Assembly (NCBI GenBank): GCA_022360555.1 | Contig: JAKSCQ010000234.1 | Coordinates: 1 to 32,389 of the forward strand | Direction of reading: 5' to 3' | Length of the DNA: 32,389 nucleotides | From: Pseudomonadales bacterium | Lineage (GTDB): Bacteria > Pseudomonadota > Gammaproteobacteria > Pseudomonadales > Alcanivoracaceae | Part shown: one piece after another, positions 85 through 32,389 of the stretch | Position numbering within the stretch: the first letter of the stretch is position 1 | How the letters are laid out: the number at the start of each line of letters is the position of its first letter | Position numbers and translations under genes: made by a program | Notes under the pieces: generated by a model | Database searches by the model: none | What the model was told of the DNA's origin: nothing | The model's input: only the letters and a program-made list of their open reading frames with translations

Positions 85-582
85 ATGGTGCTTCGTCAAT
101 CCGGGTGGAGGGAGGTTTTGTCTATTACGCTGACACGCAACACGCATCACGCTTGCACGCAAAAGGGCTCATCACGAATGAGAGGAACGGCACCTTTCTC
201 AGCGTGCTGGCGGTGTTGCAGGAGCTTGATTGCAAGCGAACATCGGCCTTGATGTGCCAAGCCGGTTCGCCTGCAAATCGCCTTCTACAATGAATCAGCA
301 TACAAGGAGCGTAGCGGAGTAACGCACGCAGTTACGTGCGACCCAAGAAGACTTGAGAGAAACAGGCAGGGCGAGCAGTGCACCCAGTTAATGAGCGACC
401 CAGCAACACGACAAAAACACCGCCGGCGTGCAGGCGTGGAGCGTGCCTGCGTGCAAGCCTGTTTTTCGCCCGCAATATCACGCCTCGCAATCCCCCGTTT
501 CCCTACAATTCTGCGAAGTGCCTTTTCTATAATCGGCCAGCAAAAGTACACACCATCCCACAGCCATGCTTTAATCGGTGCC
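85..582. other. Long non-coding stretch upstream of the response regulator
   Basis: About 500 bases without a convincing gene. It holds two inverted arrays of CACGC-type units (about 127-163 and 425-461, listed separately) and, between them, a long imperfect hairpin at 228-279 whose outer arms are GATTGCAAGCGAAC and GTTCGCCTGCAAATC and whose inner part pairs CGGCCTTG with CAAGCCG. A further short inverted repeat CGCACG/CGTGCG lies near 330-350. Open frames here have atypical composition and no recognisable domain. The promoter of the response regulator should lie in 462-582 but no clear -35/-10 pair stands out. Confidence 0.5.
127..461. repeat. Heptamer-array element G (CACGC family), inverted arms
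   Basis: The left arm (about 127-163) is built of CACGCAA, CACGCAT, CACGCTTG and CACGCAAA units in tandem. The right arm (about 425-461) is built of the complementary type: GCGTGCAG, GCGTGGA, GCGTGCCT, GCGTGCAA. The arms are thus in inverted orientation around about 260 bp of non-coding DNA with a long hairpin. The same unit family recurs at 25163-25226 and 26349-26430. Unit length is 7 with occasional 8. No target-site duplication is visible. Confidence 0.65.
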
Positions 583-1239
583 ATGACAACAATTCTAATT
601 GCCGATGATCACCCGCTTTTTCGCGCTGCCCTGAAACAGGCGGTGGAGGCCAGCTTTGCCGAAGCGGATATCCATGAAGCCGATTCCCTGGCCACACTGG
701 AAACCGTGGGCCAGCAGGGCATCCCCTTCGATGTGATTCTGCTGGATCTGCACATGCCCGGCACTCACGGTTTTTCCGGCCTCATCTACCTCCGCGATCA
801 ATACAGGAAAGTCCCGCTGGTGGTGATTTCCGCCACCGAAGACGTAGACGTGATTCAGCGCGCCATTCATTTCGGCGCCGATGGTTTCATCCCCAAATCC
901 GCCTCGGTGGACACCATGACCGACGCCATGCGCAAGATCATGGATGGCGAACGCTGGCTACCCGAATACGCCCGCCGCGCCATGCCCCCCACCCTGCCCG
1001 ACCATTCTGCCATGACCGAACGCATCACCAGCCTGACCCCGCAACAGTTCCGGGTTATGGGCATGCTGATGGAAGGCATGCAAAACAAGGTCATCGCCTA
1101 CGAACTGGATGTCTCCGAAGCCACCGTCAAAGCCCACATGACCGCCATCTTCCGCAAACTGGGCGTACGTAATCGTACCCAGGCGGTGCTGGCGCTGAAG
1201 GATCTGGCGATTGAGGCGCCGGGGGTGGAAGGCAATTAA
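583..1239 (+). CDS. crbR: LuxR/NarL-family response regulator, CrbR/ErdR type
   Basis: A 218-residue two-component response regulator expected to bind DNA when phosphorylated. The receiver domain (about 1-120) has the acidic pair D8-D9, the phospho-acceptor D55 in LLDLHMPG, S83 and K105. A LuxR-type helix-turn-helix follows (about 148-212), with the recognition region VSEATVKAHM. The start at 583 is chosen because MTTILIADDHPLF begins exactly at the first strand of the receiver fold; the open frame upstream runs through non-coding repeat DNA. No strong ribosome binding site is seen. It converges on the hybrid kinase gene. In Vibrio (CrbS/CrbR) and Pseudomonas (MxtR/ErdR) such pairs turn on acetate use; that partnership is inferred from the neighbours. 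The stop codon TAA lies inside an AT-rich heptamer array. Confidence 0.85.
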   Translation: MTTILIADDHPLFRAALKQAVEASFAEADIHEADSLATLETVGQQGIPFDVILLDLHMPGTHGFSGLIYLRDQYRKVPLVVISATEDVDVIQRAIHFGADGFIPKSASVDTMTDAMRKIMDGERWLPEYARRAMPPTLPDHSAMTERITSLTPQQFRVMGMLMEGMQNKVIAYELDVSEATVKAHMTAIFRKLGVRNRTQAVLALKDLAIEAPGVEGN

Positions 1240-1392
1240 TAGTTAATAATGAATAATTAATAGTTGCGCGGGAAAGGCATTCGTAACTGAAACCCATGAG
1301 GCCGCGCTCACTGGCTGGGCGCGGCCTCATGGGTTTTGGAACACGAGATCTTTGATCGCGCGTTATTAATTATTCATTATTAACTATTAATT
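1234..1392. repeat. Heptamer-array element A (TTAATAG family) with perfect 29-bp inverted arms
   Basis: The arms at 1234-1262 and 1364-1392 are exact reverse complements over 29 bp. Each is a run of 7-bp units: AATTAAT, AGTTAAT, AATGAAT, AATTAAT. Both arms are followed inward by a CGCG-containing step (1265-1270 and 1357-1362). The arms run into the 3' ends of both convergent genes: the response regulator ends in its first unit and the kinase takes its last codons and TAA stop from the other arm. A strong terminator hairpin sits in the centre. Confidence 0.85.
1290..1337. terminator. Bidirectional terminator between convergent genes
   Basis: A perfect 18-bp stem (1290-1307 with 1319-1336) and an 11-nt loop. 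The stem begins with AAA and ends with TTTT, so it can work as an intrinsic terminator on either strand. It lies between the 3' ends of the response regulator (+) and the hybrid kinase (-), inside heptamer element A. Confidence 0.85.
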
Positions 1393-4300
1393 TGCTCAAG
1401 CTCCCGCCGCAACATCCCCTCACTCAACGGTTTCTGCAAAAACCCCACCCCCTGTTCTTCGGCGCGTTGGCGGACTTCGGGGCGGCGGTCGGCGGTCATG
1501 AGGACGGCGGGGACTACGTCGTCCCAGCAACTGTCCAGGGCTTCGATCACGGCGAAGCCGTCTTCTTCATCCAGTTGATAATCCACCAGCAACAGGTCCG
1601 GCGCTGCCGTCGTGGCGGCTTTGGCTACCGCCTGTTCCCGTCCATTGGCGGCAATCACCTGGCAGCCCAGGGTTTCCAGCGCCGCCACCAGGCTGGCCAG
1701 CAGGGCGCTGTCGTTGTCCACGCAGAATACCCGCATGCCCTGGATATCCTTGCTGCCCGCTTCCGGTTCCGTGCTCAATACCGGTGGCAGGTCGGCGTCG
1801 GCGAGCGGCACGGTGACGCAGAACACCGTGCCCTTGCCCGGCCAGGATTGCACCGTCAGGCGGTGACCCAGTAACCGGCAGATACGATCGGCGATGGCCA
1901 GCCCCAGGCCCAGTCCTTTCACCTGGCGACGCCCCTGCTGGGGCAGGCGCTGGAATTCCTGGAAAATCTGTTCGTGCTGGTCATCCGGAATCCCCGGACC
2001 GGTATCCCAGACCTGGATGCGCAGGGCACCGGGCAGGCGACGGCAACCAAACAGGATGCGCCCCTGCTCGGTGTAACGAATGGCATTGGACAACAGGTTC
2101 TGCAGCACCCGCCGTAACAGGGCCTCATCGCTTTCCACCACCGCATCGCTGGGCACCATTTTCAGGTCCAGCCCCTGGGCCCGGGCCAGGGCCGAAAACT
2201 CCTGCCCCAGTGGCGCCATCAGGCTGGACAGGCGTAGCGGATGGACATGGGACGGCATGGCGCCGGTATCCAGCTTGCTGATTTCCAGCAGGGCGGAAAT
2301 GATCTGCTCCGCTGCTTGCAGGGAACTGTCGATGTGACCGAGCACATCCACTTCGTGGGCGAATTCCGTTTCATCCTTGTTGCGCAATTTCTGCCGCAGG
2401 GACGAGGCAAACAATTGAGCCGCATTGAGCGGTTGCATCAGGTCGTGGCCGGCGGCGGCCAGAAAGCGGGTCTTGCCTTCATTGGCCTGGGCCAGACGCG
2501 CATTCAGCTCCGTCAGCTTGCGGGTGCGCTCGGCCACCATGTTTTCCAGGTTTTCATTGATCTGCCGTAGCGCCTGTTCGTCACGTTTGCGCTCGGTAAT
2601 ATCCATGTAGGTACTGACAAACCCACCTCCCACCATGGGGGTGCCGCGCACTTCCACCACGATGCCGTTGGGCAGCTCCCGTTCGAACTTGTGGGCATGC
2701 CCTTCGCGTAACAACTGCACCCGTTTTTGTACGTCCTGGTCGATATCTTCCCCGTCATAGAAACCGCGTTCGGCATTGAAACGGTAGACATCCTCGATGG
2801 AGCGGCCCAGACGTATCAGCCCGTCCGGGTAGTCGAACAGCTTCACATAGGCCTGGTTCCAGGCCACCACCTGCATGTTGCGATCCACCACACAGATGCC
2901 CTGGCTGATGGTTTCGATGGTGGTGCGCAGCAACTGGTGGTTGAACTGGATCAGCTCGGAGGCCTCGTCCATCATCCGCACCACGTCGTCATGGCGGCTG
3001 TTCTGCTTGCGCAGCAGCGAACTCATCACGATGCGCGCGGTGGACGCCCCCATGGTCCCCGCCAACAGGCGCTCCACATAGCGCACCAGATGCAACGGTG
3101 CCGGCAGATCCAGATCCTCGGATACCGTGCGCCGGCGCATGTAATCAAAAAACAACGGCTCCGCCCGGGGATTCCCCAGCCCGCGCTTGCATACCTCCAG
3201 CAATTCGGCGGTGGTAATGGAAGGATGGCCCATGCCTTCGCGCCACCAGTCCGTGGGCATATCCACGAAGCGGGCCGCCTGGGCCTCGTCCAGGGCATCA
3301 TGGGTGGCGCGCCGGGAGAAGTAGATAAAGGCGGCCAGGTTCACCGACAAGGACCAGAACACCCCATGGGTCAGCGGCTCCAGGCCCTCGATCCCGAACA
3401 GGGCGTTGGGACGTAGCAGCCCCAGCCCCAACAGGCCGTGCTGATTGAGCAGCACCACCCAGGATTCCGGCAGGATGACCGGCACCAGCAGGCAATAGAA
3501 CCACAGCACGAACCCCAGGATCAGCCCGGCAAAGGCACCCTGCTTGTGACCATTACGCCAGTACAGCGCCCCGATCAGGGACGGCGCAAACTGGGCCACC
3601 GCCGCAAAGGAAAGCAGCCCGATACTGGCCAGCCCGTCGAACCGGTCGATCAGGGTGTGAAAGGCAAAGGCCAGCCCCAGCAGCACCAGGATGCTGGCCC
3701 GGCGCAGAAAGCGTAGCTGGCCGGTCAGATCGGACAACTGCTCTTTTTCGTGCAGGCGGGACTGCAACCACATGGGCAGCAGCACCTCATTGGTGAGCAT
3801 GATGGCCAACGCCATGGTGGACACGATGACCATGCCGGTGGCGGCGGCAATCCCGCCAATAAACGACACCAGCAACATGAAGGAGCTGTCCTGGGCCATG
3901 GGCAACGACAGCATGTAGGTATCCGCCTGGCCGATCAGGTAGGGCTGGGTCACCACCCCGGTGATCACGATCGGCAAGACAAAAACGGCGAACAGCATCA
4001 GATAAGCAGGGAACAGCCAGCGCGTGGTACGCAAGTGGCGCAGGTCATTGTTTTCCACGATGCCGGCATGGAACTGTCGGGGCAGGCAGAGGATGGCCAC
4101 CATGGACAGCAGCAAGGCGGTGACAAAACTCTGCGAGAACAGGGTGGGTTCGAAGGTTTCCATCACATCCCGGCGTGCCGCCAGTTGCTGCCACAGATCC
4201 ATGGGTCCGTCGAAAATGCTGTACAGGCAGTACAGGCCCAGCAGGACAAAGGCCACCACCTTGATAAAGGATTCAAAACTGACCGCCAGCATCAGCCCCG

Positions 4301-4850
4301 ACTGGTGCTCGGTGGTATCAATATGGCGGGTGCCGAACAGCAGGGTGAACAACGCCATCAGTGCCGCCACCACCAGGGCCGTGTCCACCTGCCCCGGGGT
4401 ACCGTCCTTGAGCACATAGTCGAACGACAGGGTCACGGCCTTCAGTTGCAGGGCGATATAGGGCAACACCCCGATAATGGCCACCAGGGTGACCAGCACC
4501 GCCAGCCGCCGGGACTTGCCGTAGCGGGCGGCAAGAAAGTCCGCAATGGAAGTAATGTGATGCTGCTGGGCCACGGACACCATCTTGTAGATCAGGGCGC
4601 CACCGAGCAGCACGGTGATGATGGGGCCCAGGTAGATGGGCAGGTAGTTCCAGCCGTTCTGGGCCGCCTCGCCCACCGCCCCGTAAAAAGTCCAGGAGGT
4701 GCAGTACACGCCGAGACCCAGACTGTAGACCCAGGCGTTCTGGAAGGTCTTTCTGCCCTGGCGGGCGGCCCTGTCGCCCCACCAGGCGATCACGAAAAGC
4801 ACCAGCACATAGGCCAGTGCCAGGCCACTCAATTCCCAGAGAGAAAACAC
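1380..4850 (-). CDS. crbS: Transporter-fused hybrid sensor histidine kinase (CrbS/MxtR type)
   Basis: An inner-membrane hybrid kinase of 1156 residues. Residues 1-515 form a sodium/solute-symporter-like membrane domain of about 13 hydrophobic segments. A PAS domain follows (about 640-755, ending in DITERKR), then a coiled linker, a HisKA domain with H802 in AGHDLMQPLNAA, and an HATPase domain with N-box NLLSNAIRY (918-926), G1 DTGPGIP (949-955) and G2 GLGLGLA (979-985). The C-terminal receiver (about 1038-1155) has D1090 in LLLVDYQLD and K1140. The start is GTG at 4850, preceded by a GGGGG ribosome binding site. It is last in the acetate-locus run. CrbS/MxtR proteins control acs and acetate uptake; that role is inferred from domain order and neighbours. 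The last codons and stop come from heptamer element A. Confidence 0.88.
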   Translation of the reverse strand: MFSLWELSGLALAYVLVLFVIAWWGDRAARQGRKTFQNAWVYSLGLGVYCTSWTFYGAVGEAAQNGWNYLPIYLGPIITVLLGGALIYKMVSVAQQHHITSIADFLAARYGKSRRLAVLVTLVAIIGVLPYIALQLKAVTLSFDYVLKDGTPGQVDTALVVAALMALFTLLFGTRHIDTTEHQSGLMLAVSFESFIKVVAFVLLGLYCLYSIFDGPMDLWQQLAARRDVMETFEPTLFSQSFVTALLLSMVAILCLPRQFHAGIVENNDLRHLRTTRWLFPAYLMLFAVFVLPIVITGVVTQPYLIGQADTYMLSLPMAQDSSFMLLVSFIGGIAAATGMVIVSTMALAIMLTNEVLLPMWLQSRLHEKEQLSDLTGQLRFLRRASILVLLGLAFAFHTLIDRFDGLASIGLLSFAAVAQFAPSLIGALYWRNGHKQGAFAGLILGFVLWFYCLLVPVILPESWVVLLNQHGLLGLGLLRPNALFGIEGLEPLTHGVFWSLSVNLAAFIYFSRRATHDALDEAQAARFVDMPTDWWREGMGHPSITTAELLEVCKRGLGNPRAEPLFFDYMRRRTVSEDLDLPAPLHLVRYVERLLAGTMGASTARIVMSSLLRKQNSRHDDVVRMMDEASELIQFNHQLLRTTIETISQGICVVDRNMQVVAWNQAYVKLFDYPDGLIRLGRSIEDVYRFNAERGFYDGEDIDQDVQKRVQLLREGHAHKFERELPNGIVVEVRGTPMVGGGFVSTYMDITERKRDEQALRQINENLENMVAERTRKLTELNARLAQANEGKTRFLAAAGHDLMQPLNAAQLFASSLRQKLRNKDETEFAHEVDVLGHIDSSLQAAEQIISALLEISKLDTGAMPSHVHPLRLSSLMAPLGQEFSALARAQGLDLKMVPSDAVVESDEALLRRVLQNLLSNAIRYTEQGRILFGCRRLPGALRIQVWDTGPGIPDDQHEQIFQEFQRLPQQGRRQVKGLGLGLAIADRICRLLGHRLTVQSWPGKGTVFCVTVPLADADLPPVLSTEPEAGSKDIQGMRVFCVDNDSALLASLVAALETLGCQVIAANGREQAVAKAATTAAPDLLLVDYQLDEEDGFAVIEALDSCWDDVVPAVLMTADRRPEVRQRAEEQGVGFLQKPLSEGMLRRELEQINS

Positions 4851-7677: not shown

Positions 7678-7841
7678 CAAGTGGCAAGTTTCAAGTTACA
7701 ACGCGGGTCACTGACATTGCCAGCCGCAAGGCAACGGCTACGCGCAGTATTCAGGGTGGTTACGGCGGGTATACTCGCGGCCACCTGCGTCAAAGCCGTC
7801 TTCAAACTCTCTCGCGTTGCAACTTGAAACTTGTCGCTTGT
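7678..7841. repeat. Heptamer-array element C (CAAGTTT family), inverted arms
   Basis: The left arm (7678-7705) consists of CAAGTGG, CAAGTTT, CAAGTTA, CAACGCG. The right arm (7813-7841), read on the minus strand, consists of CAAGCGA, CAAGTTT, CAAGTTG, CAACGCG. Both arms finish in CGCG on the inner side, around about 107 bp of unassigned DNA. The element fills the gap between the symporter and DUF294 genes. The same unit family and the same CGCG edge occur 19 kb away at 27108-27264. Confidence 0.8.
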
Positions 7842-24603: not shown

Positions 24604-24637
24604 AGCGTCGGACATCTGACGTCGGACGTCCGACGCT
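24604..24637. repeat. Heptamer-array element D (GTCGGAC family)
   Basis: Four 7-bp units in a row: GTCGGAC, ATCTGAC, GTCGGAC, GTCCGAC. The ends AGCGTCGGAC (24604-24613) and GTCCGACGCT (24628-24637) are exact 10-bp reverse complements, so the array also folds. It lies between ribH and nusB, with no T run. The unit length equals that of the other arrays in the window although the sequence is unlike them. Confidence 0.7.
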
Positions 24638-27089: not shown

Positions 27090-27107
27090 GGAAAACCTCT
27101 TGGAGAT

Positions 27108-27264
27108 GCAAGTTTCAAGTTGCAAATTTCAACGCGGTAAACGCCGTGCAATACGGCCAATGCCAAGCTACGCGCTCTTGCGACTGCAATAATCCGCGGG
27201 CACAGACTTTCCGCAACCAACACCCTCTTTCGCGCCTTGCAACTTTCAACTTGAAACTTGCAAC
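27108..27264. repeat. Heptamer-array element H (CAAGTTT family), inverted arms
   Basis: The left arm (27108-27136) repeats CAAGTTT, CAAGTTG, CAAATTT, CAACGCG. The right arm (27231-27264), read on the minus strand, repeats CAAGTTT, CAAGTTG, AAAGTTG and ends CAAGGCGCG. Both arms end inward in CGCG, as in element C, and the outer 16 bases of the arms are identical. The right arm encodes the last residues of RibD (LQVSS) and its TGA stop. About 94 bp of unassigned DNA lies between the arms. Confidence 0.8.
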
Positions 27265-28379
27265 TCGTTCGGAACCAGCGTCAGGCGCAGATCATTACCG
27301 ATTTGCCGCACATCCTGCCATTGCAGCGTCACCTTCTCGCTCATACTGGCCAACTGCGGCAGGCCCAGCAGCGGGCGGGCGGACGACCCCAGCAGGGCCG
27401 GTGCCATATAGACGATCAGCTCGTCGAACAGCCCCTCGCGAACAAAGGCCCCGGCCAGCGTGGCGCCACATTCTACCAGCACTTCATTGCATTCGCGCCG
27501 GTTCAATTCCTTGAGTAGCTGCTGCAGGTCAATACCGGAGCCAGAGGCCGGCAGGTGCATGACTTCCGCCCCGGCCGACTCCAGCGCATTCTGACGCCCA
27601 CGATGTTCTTCCCCGGCAATCACCAGGCAGTGCCCCGGAGCACTGACCACCGGCACATCCGGCGGCGTCTTCAGGGTCCGGTCCAGGATCACACGCAAGG
27701 GCTGGCGCACCCAGTCACTGCCGTAATCCGCACAGGTCCATTGTTCTGCCCTCACTGTGTAGGAAGGCCGATCCGCCAGCACCGTGCCCACCCCGGTAAT
27801 GACCGCAGAGCTGCGCGCCCGCAGGCGCTGCACATCTTCACGGGCCGCCGGGCCGGTGATCCACTGGGACTCACCACTGGCCATGGCGGTACGGCCATCC
27901 ACACTGGCGGCAATCTTGATACGGATAAAGGGGCGCTGGCGGGTCATGCGGGAAATGAACCCCGGGTTCAGGGCCCGTGCCTCGGCTTCCAGCAGGCCGC
28001 AGGCGGTGTCGATACCAGCATCGGCCAGCCGTTTCAGGCCCCGCCCCGCCACCTGCGGATTGGGGTCTTCCATGGCGGCAACCACCCTGGCTACCCCGGC
28101 CGCCACCAGCGCATCCGCGCAGGGGCCAGTGCGGCCAGTATGGGAACAGGGTTCCAAAGTCACATAGGCGGTCGCCCCCTGCGCCTTTTCTCCGGCAGCA
28201 GCCAGGGCATGTCGCTCGGCATGGGGGAGCCCGGCGCGGGCGTGGAAGCCTTCGCCAACGATGTCGCTATCGCGCACCAGCACACACCCCACCCTGGGAT
28301 TCGGGTCCGTGGTGTATAGCCCCTGCTCCGCCAGTCGCAGGGCGCGAGCCATGTATTGATGATCCAGCGAGGTGAACAT
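27246..28379 (-). CDS. ribD: Bifunctional riboflavin deaminase/reductase RibD
   Basis: A 377-residue enzyme for the second and third riboflavin steps. The N-terminal deaminase (1-145) has the zinc site HAERHAL (53-59) and PCSHTGRTGPC (77-87). The C-terminal reductase (about 150-370) has KIAASVDGRTAM, GVGTVLADRPS and ECGATLAGAFV for NADPH and substrate. ATG at 28379 has no Shine-Dalgarno but a TAGAAT box 7 nt upstream whose TAG is also the lysR stop codon. The last five residues and stop are supplied by heptamer element H. Confidence 0.93.
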   Translation of the reverse strand: MFTSLDHQYMARALRLAEQGLYTTDPNPRVGCVLVRDSDIVGEGFHARAGLPHAERHALAAAGEKAQGATAYVTLEPCSHTGRTGPCADALVAAGVARVVAAMEDPNPQVAGRGLKRLADAGIDTACGLLEAEARALNPGFISRMTRQRPFIRIKIAASVDGRTAMASGESQWITGPAAREDVQRLRARSSAVITGVGTVLADRPSYTVRAEQWTCADYGSDWVRQPLRVILDRTLKTPPDVPVVSAPGHCLVIAGEEHRGRQNALESAGAEVMHLPASGSGIDLQQLLKELNRRECNEVLVECGATLAGAFVREGLFDELIVYMAPALLGSSARPLLGLPQLASMSEKVTLQWQDVRQIGNDLRLTLVPNELQVSS

Positions 28380-30680: not shown

Positions 30681-31151
30681 TCAATCGTCTTTCTTGTCAC
30701 TCCTGCCACGCAGGCGATCCACTTCCGCGGAAAACTCGGAAATATCCTGGAAGCTGCGATAAACGGAGGCGAAGCGCACATAGGCCACATCATCCAGTTG
30801 TTGCAGCTCTTCCATAACGAATTCACCCAGCTCCCTGGCCGGCAGCTCCCGCTCGCCGGTAGCCCGCAAGCGGTGACAGACCCGGCTGATCGCTGCCTCC
30901 AGATCCTCCATGCTCACCGGCCGCTTCTCCAGCGCCCGCAGCATACCCGCCCGCAGCTTGGCTTCATCAAACGGCTGACGCGTGCCATCGGATTTTACCA
31001 GCCGCGGCATCACCAGCTCGGCGGTTTCAAAGGTGGTGAAGCGCTCGTTACAACTCAAACACTCCCGCCGCCGACGCACCTGTCCACCGTCTGCCACCAG
31101 GCGGGAGTCGATGACTTTGGTGTCTTGGGCGCTGCAGAAAGGGCAATACAT
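30681..31151 (-). CDS. nrdR: Transcriptional repressor NrdR
   Basis: A 156-residue nucleotide-sensing repressor of ribonucleotide reductase genes. A zinc ribbon with CPFC (3-6) and CLSC (31-34) starts the protein, with the basic RRRREC stretch between; an ATP-cone domain (about 49-139) follows, from [22 protein letters not shown] to [11 protein letters not shown]. The ATG at 31151 is fixed by the invariant MYCPFC opening. The start is only 9 nt from the left arm of the four-helix-bundle element, so its upstream region has been replaced by repeat DNA. NrdR usually sits between glyA and ribD. Confidence 0.95.
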
Positions 31152-31160
31152 GGGGACCCC

Positions 31161-31626
31161 AATTGACAGTTGATAGTTGACAATTGACAGCTAAAACCTT
31201 CAAACCCGATTATCCGCGAGTTTTGGTGGTTTTGATAATTGCCGTCAATATCTTCAGTAATTCTTTGACGTCAGCCATAACTGACCGGCCCGCCAAAGGC
31301 TCCAGATAACCGGATTCTGTCAGCAGTTCCAGCCAATACTCCGTTTCATTGGCCTCTTTCAGAGCAATCGACAACTTATGCACGAAGTCTGCACGGCTTT
31401 CAGCCTGCTCAGCCTCTCTGACCAAGGCCCCAATTGCTGTACCGCTTCGCAGCAATTGCTTACTTAATATGTATTCCCGCTTTTGCTCTTGCAGATACTG
31501 ATAAACCTTTATCATCCGCAAAGCAAAAACGCGGGATTTCTCCCGCGCTGCATACCTTTTCGTCATCCGTGACTCTACGTATTGTTTGGCGTTTAGCTGT
31601 CAACTATCCACTGTCAACTGTCAACT
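31161..31626. mobile_element. Putative mobile unit: heptamer inverted arms around a four-helix-bundle gene (element I)
   Basis: Arms of 35 bp at 31161-31195 and 31592-31626 are inverted and match at 30 of 35 positions. Each is made of 7-bp units TTGACAG, TTGATAG, TTGACAA (or TGGATAG), and both end inward with GCTAAA. They enclose one gene, on the minus strand like its neighbours, of about 48% GC in a roughly 60% GC setting. The unit sits between glyA and nrdR, with its right arm 6 nt after the glyA stop. No transposase and no clear target duplication are visible. Confidence 0.65.
31210..31566 (-). CDS. Four-helix-bundle protein (S23 / 23S rRNA intervening-sequence family)
   Basis: A 118-residue, highly charged, all-helical protein. 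The pattern KSRVFALRMIKVYQYL, then LSKQLLRSGTAIGALVREAEQAES, then DFVHKLSIALKEANETEYWLELL is that of the S23/IVP family (TIGR02436, PF05635), whose members form pentamers and include proteins coded inside 23S rRNA intervening sequences; Avd of diversity-generating retroelements has the same fold. Helices run at about 8-30, 34-58, 60-85 and 95-114. The function is not established. ATG at 31566 has a weak GAG ribosome binding site. Lower GC than the neighbours and the flanking inverted heptamer arms suggest transfer as part of a mobile unit. Confidence 0.85.
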   Translation of the reverse strand: MTKRYAAREKSRVFALRMIKVYQYLQEQKREYILSKQLLRSGTAIGALVREAEQAESRADFVHKLSIALKEANETEYWLELLTESGYLEPLAGRSVMADVKELLKILTAIIKTTKTRG

Positions 31627-31632
31627 CACCTT

Positions 31633-32389
31633 CTAACGCTCGTAAACGGGAAGGCGTTTACAAATTTCCGCCACCTTCCCTTTCACACTCTCAATCACAG
31701 ACTCATCGCCCATGTTGTCGAGAATGTCGCAGATCCAGCCGGCCAGGGCCGAAGCGTCGGCTTCATTGAAGCCGCGGCGGGTGATGGAGGGGGAGCCGAT
31801 GCGCAGACCGGAGGTGACGAACGGGGAACGCGGATCGTTGGGCACGGCGTTCTTGTTCACGGTGATGTTGGCGCGGCCCAGGGCAGCGTCGGCATCCTTA
31901 CCGGTGATGTCCTGCTTGATCAGGCTGAGCAGGAACAGGTGGTTTTCGGTGCCGTTGGAGACCACGTCGAAACCGCGCTCGATGAACACGCTGGCCATGG
32001 CCTGGGCGTTCTTGACCACCTGCTGCTGGTAGTTCTTGAAGTCGGACTGCATGGCTTCCTTGAAGCAGATCGCCTTGGCGGCAATCACGTGCTCCAGCGG
32101 GCCACCCTGACCACCAGGGAAAACCGCAGAGTTGATCTTCTTCTGAATCTCTTCGTTGGCCTTGCCCATGATCAGACCACCACGGGGGCCGCCCAGGGTC
32201 TTGTGGGTGGTGGAGGTAACCACATCGGCGTAGGGCACCGGGTTGGGGTAGACACCGGCGGCAACCAGACCGGCCACGTGAGCCATATCCACCATCAGGT
32301 AGGCGCCCACCTTGTCGGCGATCTCGCGGAAGCGGGCCCAGTCCATAATCTGGGAGTAGGCGGAGAAACCGGCCACGATCATCTTCGGC
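31633..32389 (-). CDS. glyA: Serine hydroxymethyltransferase (5' part beyond the window)
   Basis: The C-terminal 250 or so residues of a PLP enzyme that interconverts serine and glycine with tetrahydrofolate. The visible part begins [12 protein letters not shown] and includes [13 protein letters not shown], the PLP-lysine motif [30 protein letters not shown] and [12 protein letters not shown], ending LPVYER. The full protein would have about 420 residues, so roughly 40% is missing beyond the right edge. The stop TAG lies 6 nt from the right arm of element I. Confidence 0.95.

Follow-up and report, generated by a model that had tools for sequence, protein, structure and literature searches.

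The cassette and its S23 gene

The window (the whole 32,389-nt stretch of DNA that was analysed) carries a cassette between nrdR and glyA, in which one S23 gene lies between two inverted arms built of 7-bp units (heptads). The features of the locus are as follows.

31161..31626, no strand: whole cassette (arm, S23 gene, arm), from an inverted-repeat search and direct reading
31592..31624, minus strand: upstream arm in the sense of the gene, heptads GTTGACA GTTGACA GTGGATA GTTGACA, inner end GCTAAA
31163..31195, plus strand: downstream arm, inverted, four heptads of the upstream-arm type, inner end GCTAAA
31210..31566, minus strand: S23 (four-helix-bundle) gene, 118 aa, from PF05635, TIGR02436, the structural model and Foldseek
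30681..31151, minus strand: nrdR, flanking gene with a history unlike that of the cassette, from profile search, trees and distance correlation
31633..32388, minus strand: 3' part of glyA, flanking gene with a history unlike that of the cassette, from the ORF list, trees and distance correlation

We take the ORF at 31633..32388 to be glyA, as it is named in the earlier note. The window arms are 33 nt each, 88% complementary and separated by 396 nt. When lengthened to 31161-31195 and 31592-31626, they were identical at 30/35 positions by eye. Each arm contains four heptads of the TTGACAG type, with GCTAAA at its inner end, and the inverted 35-bp arms of the earlier note were confirmed by reading and by shuffles. 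The inverted-match score of the arms was 23.0, compared with a maximum of 12.5 in 500 dinucleotide-preserving shuffles and 13.5 for the best of 210 sliding window positions. This indicates that the arms are not a product of chance. The arms pair in the predicted fold, both as RNA (z -7.5) and as ssDNA (z -7.4).

The gene product matched PF05635 (E 1.2e-24, 87 bits against a curated cut-off of 33.8) and TIGR02436 (E 1.2e-28, 99.5 bits against a cut-off of 24). The GC content of the gene is 0.476 versus 0.606 for the window, in agreement with the claim of a single 118-residue S23/IVP gene of lower GC. The AF2 model (pLDDT 94.7) aligned with 2RLD at a TM of 0.92, which places the protein among the four-helix bundles. 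The proposed relation in fold to Avd, a protein of diversity-generating retroelements, also held (4DWL, TM 0.74, Foldseek E 0.12), and the likeness of PF05635 and Avd is mentioned in the available part of PMC10053308. The solved S23 relatives 2RLD and 2GSC have five chains each, and a Xanthomonas relative is a toroidal homopentamer according to the accessible text of PMC4990558. Selection on the gene is purifying (median dN/dS 0.12 over 75 orthologue pairs with dS up to 2, a set in which dS is high, median 1.42). Among the matches listed, the nearest named relatives were those of Alcanivorax sp. DSM 26293 and A. jadensis. S23 proteins are described as being of unknown function in the accessible text of PMC4990558 and PMC11270868.

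Nothing else is coded between the arms, as had been stated before. The S23 gene was the sole ORF within the cassette by the ORF list and a profile search of the block, and the ORF list and profile searches of the PF05635/TIGR02436 type gave no catalytic domain and no transposase in it. Judged by the ORF list and the gene names of the earlier note, no RT was seen among the ORFs of the cassette and its flanks. Diversity-generating retroelements, the setting of Avd, carry an RT with TR/VR. The cassette is adjoined by two protein genes and therefore lies outside any rRNA gene, and seven 23S oligos gave 0 matches in any of the loci retrieved. The genome of the window (Alcanivorax) has three S23 genes, all within inverted period-7 arms, and the units at the three genes differ (TTGACAG, GTCGGAC and AGTTACG types).

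Inverted heptad arms at S23 genes across phyla

PF05635 was present in 16/17 genomes of the genus. The flanks of 46 S23 matches in the genus had a median inverted-match score of 19.5 versus 8.0 for control positions within those loci (at most 200 draws), and 42/46 exceeded the control maximum. The four below it were the degenerate rows L075 and L076, together with L062 and L063. When periods from 3 to 15 were scanned in the genus, only 7 and its multiple 14 stood out.

Outside the genus, the best 80 of at least 502 confirmed relatives were taken and 10 Alcanivorax records were set aside, leaving 70 loci. This sample spans Bacteroidota, Cyanobacteria, Anaerolineales, Planctomycetota, Nitrospira and others, and also includes two Alloalcanivorax and one MAG labelled Saccharospirillum. 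The median score was 18.25 versus 8.5 in 375 controls, 63 of the 70 loci exceeded the control maximum, and period 7 was found at 84% of the loci versus 6.9% of the controls. In other Pseudomonadota, S23 matches occurred in 52/299 genomes. The 29 loci tested, among the matches listed, had a median of 19.0 versus 8.5 in 282 controls; 24/29 were above the control 95% point and 18/29 above the control maximum. Their units vary widely (for example GTAGGCA, GAGGGAT and AATGGCG). The excess of flanking heptamer arrays at other S23 genes, which the earlier note had proposed as a check, is large in all three samples. An S23 gene within inverted heptad arms is a general layout that recurs across phyla.

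Three loci outside the genus had features of their own. The MAG labelled Saccharospirillum has two nrdR genes, one of them 90% identical to that of the window; this nrdR adjoins an Alcanivorax-like S23 block, and the contig is perhaps mis-binned. The S23 locus of a MAG titled Rickettsia typhi clusters with two Bacteroidetes loci, and the label may be wrong. At an Oscillatoria S23 locus, the flanks match in inverted orientation over more than 110 nt, far past the heptad arms.

The heptad follows the S23 protein

A tree was built from 42 S23 proteins of the genus; L036, L074, L075 and L076 (internal stop or partial) were left out, and unit labels were assigned by eye. The 11 unit labels need 10 changes on this tree, which is the minimum possible. 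Shuffled labels needed 29.6 changes on average, and 0/200 shuffles were as low as 10. One site, which we take from partial reading to be metK, carries S23 proteins of the GTCGGAC or the CACGCAA clade, each with its own unit. A second site, taken in the same way to be cys, carries AGTTACG, AGCTACA or AGTTGAA clades with their own units, and the glyA-nrdR site has four clade and unit variants across the genus. At 16 glyA-nrdR loci, Mantel correlations were 0.50 between S23 and the left arm, 0.55 between S23 and the right arm and 0.60 between the arms (p 0.002 each), compared with -0.09 to -0.02 between S23 and windows in the glyA and nrdR flanks. The heptad goes with the protein clade rather than with the site.

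Covariation was scanned between the variable heptad bases and the 118 residues at 89 loci of the S23 subclass of the window, after removal of seven near-duplicate loci and with the register A1 R2 T3 K4 R5 A6 Y7. The strongest covariation across phyla linked residue 69 to base 6 and residue 54 to base 5. T at base 6 went with Q69 in 7/7 loci and A with L69 in 80/82; the sole case of A with Q69 (L174) is a probable register error. An aromatic residue 54 was found in 15/22 loci with A at base 5 and in 0/66 with G; the loci that deviate have H or Q54 and arms that are rich in A and in part mixed. Of the 15 aromatic cases, nine are of the Alcanivoracaceae type and six come from elsewhere, one of which (L213) has an in-frame stop. 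On a tree built without the residue columns tested, the aromatic residue 54 needs 6 changes and Q69 needs 3; tree-independent contrasts agree with the residue-base links and are too few to reach 0.05. In the S23 model, helix 2 precedes residue 54, and helix 3 contains residues 66 and 69. This covariation suggests that S23 recognizes the heptads directly, and we consider it likely that S23 binds and reads its own heptads.

Exchange of the arms and the gene as one block

The glyA-nrdR spacer holds an S23 block in 16 of the 17 genomes of the genus, and S23 genes occupy the same few sites throughout it. The flank tree conflicts with the S23 tree: five sister pairs of the flank tree (supports 99/98 to 100/100) fall across the main S23 split (96/97). 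In these pairs glyA is 92-98% and nrdR 82-98% identical, S23 is 67-72% identical, and the arms switch with the gene. Between the glyA stop and the nrdR ATG, the two members of a pair differ at 28-33% of the bases. The 30-bp bins of the flanks differ by 0-10%, except for 13% in the first glyA bin; next to the swapped blocks, 10% is reached in glyA bin 2 and nrdR bin 1. The exchanged block in these relatives spans the glyA stop to just short of nrdR.

Fast local mutation was ruled out as the cause of the diverged blocks, because blocks of the same clade differ by only 2.9-4.6% in three non-sister pairs. The value was 0.2% in one sister pair, and divergence in the flank bins across all four pairs was 1-18%. 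L066 and L067 have S23 proteins that are 98% alike and nrdR genes that are 78% alike, and over 120 pairs S23 identity and flank identity had a Spearman correlation of -0.009. At this fixed slot between genes, exchange involves the arms and the S23 gene together as a unit.

Alleles of the slot without S23, which the earlier note had suggested looking for, also exist. In G209, a genome of another genus, the glyA-nrdR spacer holds a heptad pair without an S23 gene (score 19.5 versus a shuffle 99% point of 9.5). The 174-bp spacer of G001, without S23, has no significant heptad pair, and a decayed pair was rejected there, since the score of 7.5 lay below the 99% point of shuffles (9.0). In the more distant G019, G094 and G086 the spacers are 30, 54 and 64 bp and show no visible arrays. 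Among the remaining distant genomes, most had an ORF other than glyA called beside nrdR.

Block exchange could be ordinary recombination. The distances of glyA and nrdR are themselves weakly correlated (0.15-0.23 over 16 loci), so recombination is common at this locus anyway. The block may then be a passenger: natural transformation and homologous recombination would swap intergenic alleles, S23 would be kept for another cell function, and the arrays would be its binding or processing sites. The weak correlation of the flanking genes agrees with this, and so does the higher divergence next to the swapped blocks, over the nearest 60 bp of glyA and 30 bp of nrdR, as would be expected from short conversion tracts. 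The lack of a TSD and one slot exchanged for a REP-like element (both below) fit as well. However, a passenger alone accounts neither for the families of dispersed arrays, nor for break points near the edges of the arrays in all five pairs, nor for the tie between heptad and protein across sites. We hold this explanation to be a serious one, though on balance somewhat improbable.

Heptad pairs without an S23 gene

The window also contains three inverted heptad pairs without an S23 gene.

1234..1392, no strand: heptad pair without S23, TTAATAG type, arms 1234-1262 and 1364-1392, identical at 29/29
7678..7840, no strand: heptad pair without S23, AGTTTCA/AGTTACA type, arms 7678-7705 and 7813-7840, 107-bp loop
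27103..27266, no strand: heptad pair without S23, AGTTTCA/AGTTGCA type, arms 27103-27136 and 27233-27266, 96-bp loop

The first pair has a 101-bp loop with a GAGGCCGCGC..GCGCGGCCTC hairpin, and its arms extend to the ends of the ORFs at 391-1239 (plus strand) and 1380-4850 (minus strand). TTAATAG arms flank S23 genes in other species and not in the genome of the window, whose cassette is of the TTGACAG type. This perfect pair therefore indicates that the dispersed pairs are not all cognate to a resident S23. In G003, the dispersed pairs are likewise a mixture of units. At 24604-24637, the window has a single near-palindromic run of the GTCGGAC type without an adjoining S23 gene; its unit is that of the S23 gene L001 in the same genome.

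The exact pattern (TKRAYAR)x3 had 48-431 overlapping matches per genome in the 16 S23-bearing genomes of the genus and 2 in G001, the only S23-less genome of the genus, on which this comparison rests; the backward control gave 0-18. Other unit families are also dispersed in the genus, and G001 has 0-1 match of each. The exact degenerate pattern was used because an own-genome pattern with 3 mismatches was uninformative (90 matches versus 107 in the backward control). Family copy number was associated with the cognate S23 for three families (p 0.035, 0.005 and 0.015, nominal and without tree correction) and showed no association for AGTTGAA (p 0.13) and AGCTACA (p 0.52). The AGCTACA counts are inflated by long tandem runs, with a high backward control (G005 367, G007 143, G014 101). 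For CACGCNN, p was 0.015 without G008, 0.013 with G008, and 0.052 when genomes having degenerate rows only were counted too. In other phyla, heptads were found in 24/28 genomes, but the backward control was high, notably in Cyanobacteria, so dispersal is claimed firmly for Alcanivorax only. Within this genus, genomes that carry S23 contain dispersed families of gene-less inverted heptad pairs.

A unit-agnostic search of four 200-kb stretches gave 40 inverted pairs, of which 4 were S23 blocks. The arms were 28-37 nt in 29/40 and the loops 85-91 nt in 15/40, many TKRAYAR loops hold a GC hairpin, and 27/40 pairs lay at most 25 bp from ORF ends on both sides, by crude ORFs. Nothing was drawn from a convergent orientation of the genes around the pairs, as the crude ORF finder misreads strands, even at the S23 site. 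The gene-less pairs share their heptads with the coding blocks, and in the examples read also the inner ends GCKAAA/TTTAGC. Terminal inverted repeats are common to coding and non-coding members, as in TIR transposons and MITEs. The TSD of such elements was not in excess (k of at least 5 in 2/40 pairs versus 4% of controls). Simple tandem repeats made by slippage were rejected as the identity of the arrays, since the arms occur as inverted pairs and go with the protein clade.

Orthologous slots often hold different heptad families between species, including at least 5/14 G013 pairs compared with G014. Among the slots listed, one G013 slot had no pair in G014. The slot of the G016 AGTTGAA pair at 143491-143651 holds a REP-like element (TGTAGGAGCGGC..CCGCTCCTACA) in the 200-kb stretch of G003.

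The pairs may also act at the level of RNA. The stem formed by the arms would be trimmed by RNase III as in 23S intervening sequences (IVS), insulating transcripts; S23 would be an RNA-binding regulator or chaperone, and the gene-less pairs would be terminators or processing sites. The predicted fold of the window block (z -7.5), the position of most pairs close to ORF ends (27/40, crude ORFs) and the GC hairpins in many loops agree with this. The Coxiella IVS has heptameric GACAGAT repeats adjoining its S23p ORF, and its stem is cleaved by RNase III (PMC4990558, accessible text). The cassette resembles the 23S rRNA IVS in the S23 family, in the similar size of the block and in an ORF within a stem-closed loop, and its ends pair to a stem around the ORF in the predicted fold. 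It differs in that it sits between protein genes, its arms match the protein clade, and dispersed gene-less pairs accompany it. By itself, an action on RNA leaves the exchange of arms and gene as one block and the changing heptad unexplained, and we consider it unlikely as the whole explanation. It is compatible with the two-part element proposed below.

It is highly improbable that the arrays are operators or promoters, with S23 as a repressor on tandem operators and the dispersed arrays as its regulon: the -35 hexamer TTGACA lies within the unit of the window and many arrays adjoin gene ends, but other S23 clades use GTCGGAC, AGCTACA, CACGCAA and similar units without TTGACA, which rejects the promoter reading as a general one, and tandem operators would have no need of inverted pairs that enclose loops of a fixed size class.

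A proposed two-part element of S23 and cognate arrays

We believe that the cassette belongs to a general class of two-part elements, each pairing an S23 gene with cognate inverted 7-bp arrays, and give this reading a probability of roughly 60%. A pentameric ring of S23, as in the solved relatives, would bind roughly four cognate heptads in a row. Bases 5 and 6 of the heptad would be read by residues near positions 54, 66 and 69, in the turn between helices 2 and 3 and in helix 3. S23 might bind the arms in folded or single-stranded form, as RNA or DNA. Such binding could conceivably promote the copying or homing, by host enzymes, of anything between two cognate arms. The resident S23 gene would then maintain the gene-less pairs as a population, in the way proposed for RAYT and REPINs.

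The earlier note had proposed that the protein and the arrays form one mobile system. The part that stands is that the arms and the gene exchange as one block. Movement by the protein did not find the same support: there was no TSD excess in the pairs and no transposase in the cassette, S23 genes keep to the same few sites in the genus, and ordinary recombination is possible. S23 may move the heptads, and it is possible that it drives or protects the copying of what its cognate arms enclose. The gene and the repeats, being exchanged and changing together, suggest an undescribed kind of minimal genetic element.

The REPIN/RAYT system consists of a gene flanked by repeats that are dispersed as inverted hairpin-forming pairs, with one repeat family per gene, and the RAYT phylogeny is largely congruent with that of the species (PMC3116915, accessible text). 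Similarly, the repeats at the S23 gene are also dispersed as inverted pairs in the same genome. The differences are that S23 is a four-helix bundle and not a Y1/HUH transposase (PF05635 is the only domain in the gene), that its repeat is a heptad array whereas REP is a palindrome, and that the S23 gene is swapped between close species. S23 and its heptads would resemble the REPIN system but with a protein that lacks any recognisable nuclease.

S23 proteins are spread over many phyla, and cognate arrays would give them a direct role as sequence-specific readers of nucleic acid. The tie between S23 and heptads would link rRNA intervening sequences to chromosomal elements. In CPR bacteria, 23S_rRNA_IVP ORFs are spread over several rRNA insertion sites (PMC11270868, accessible text). 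The broadest form of the proposal is that S23 proteins are the sequence readers of transposase-less minimal mobile repeats. The pentamer would read four heptads (residue 54 with base 5, residue 69 with base 6), and host enzymes would copy or home the S23 gene, a terminator or nothing between the arms. The rRNA IVS, the Alcanivorax pairs and perhaps the heptamers of Cyanobacteria and Bacteroidetes would be one system, and Avd a relative recruited to an RT. We regard this form as rather doubtful.

The S23-heptad tie also suggests an origin for intergenic heptamer repeats, of which STRR are an example. The TAACTGA repeats are intergenic 7-bp repeats of Cyanobacteria, Beggiatoaceae and Bacteroidetes, described in the accessible text of PMC4679880 as direct repeats with one indirect case. 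They resemble the S23 arrays as intergenic 7-bp tandem repeats of similar phylum spread, and are unlike them in being described as direct repeats with no S23 link; the term S23 is absent from the main text of that paper. No description of heptad arms as a feature of S23 genes was found in the literature searched, whose reach excludes many subscription papers and preprints. A paper on the Microcystis mobilome was irrelevant as far as the accessible text of PMC11448079 goes.

One-sided tandem runs of more than 20 AGCTACG or CGAGTTT units were seen at G004:C1:3454-3614, G005:C5:260746-260909 and G003:C3:204960-205288. These long runs look as if they were made by slippage, as if the arms can expand.
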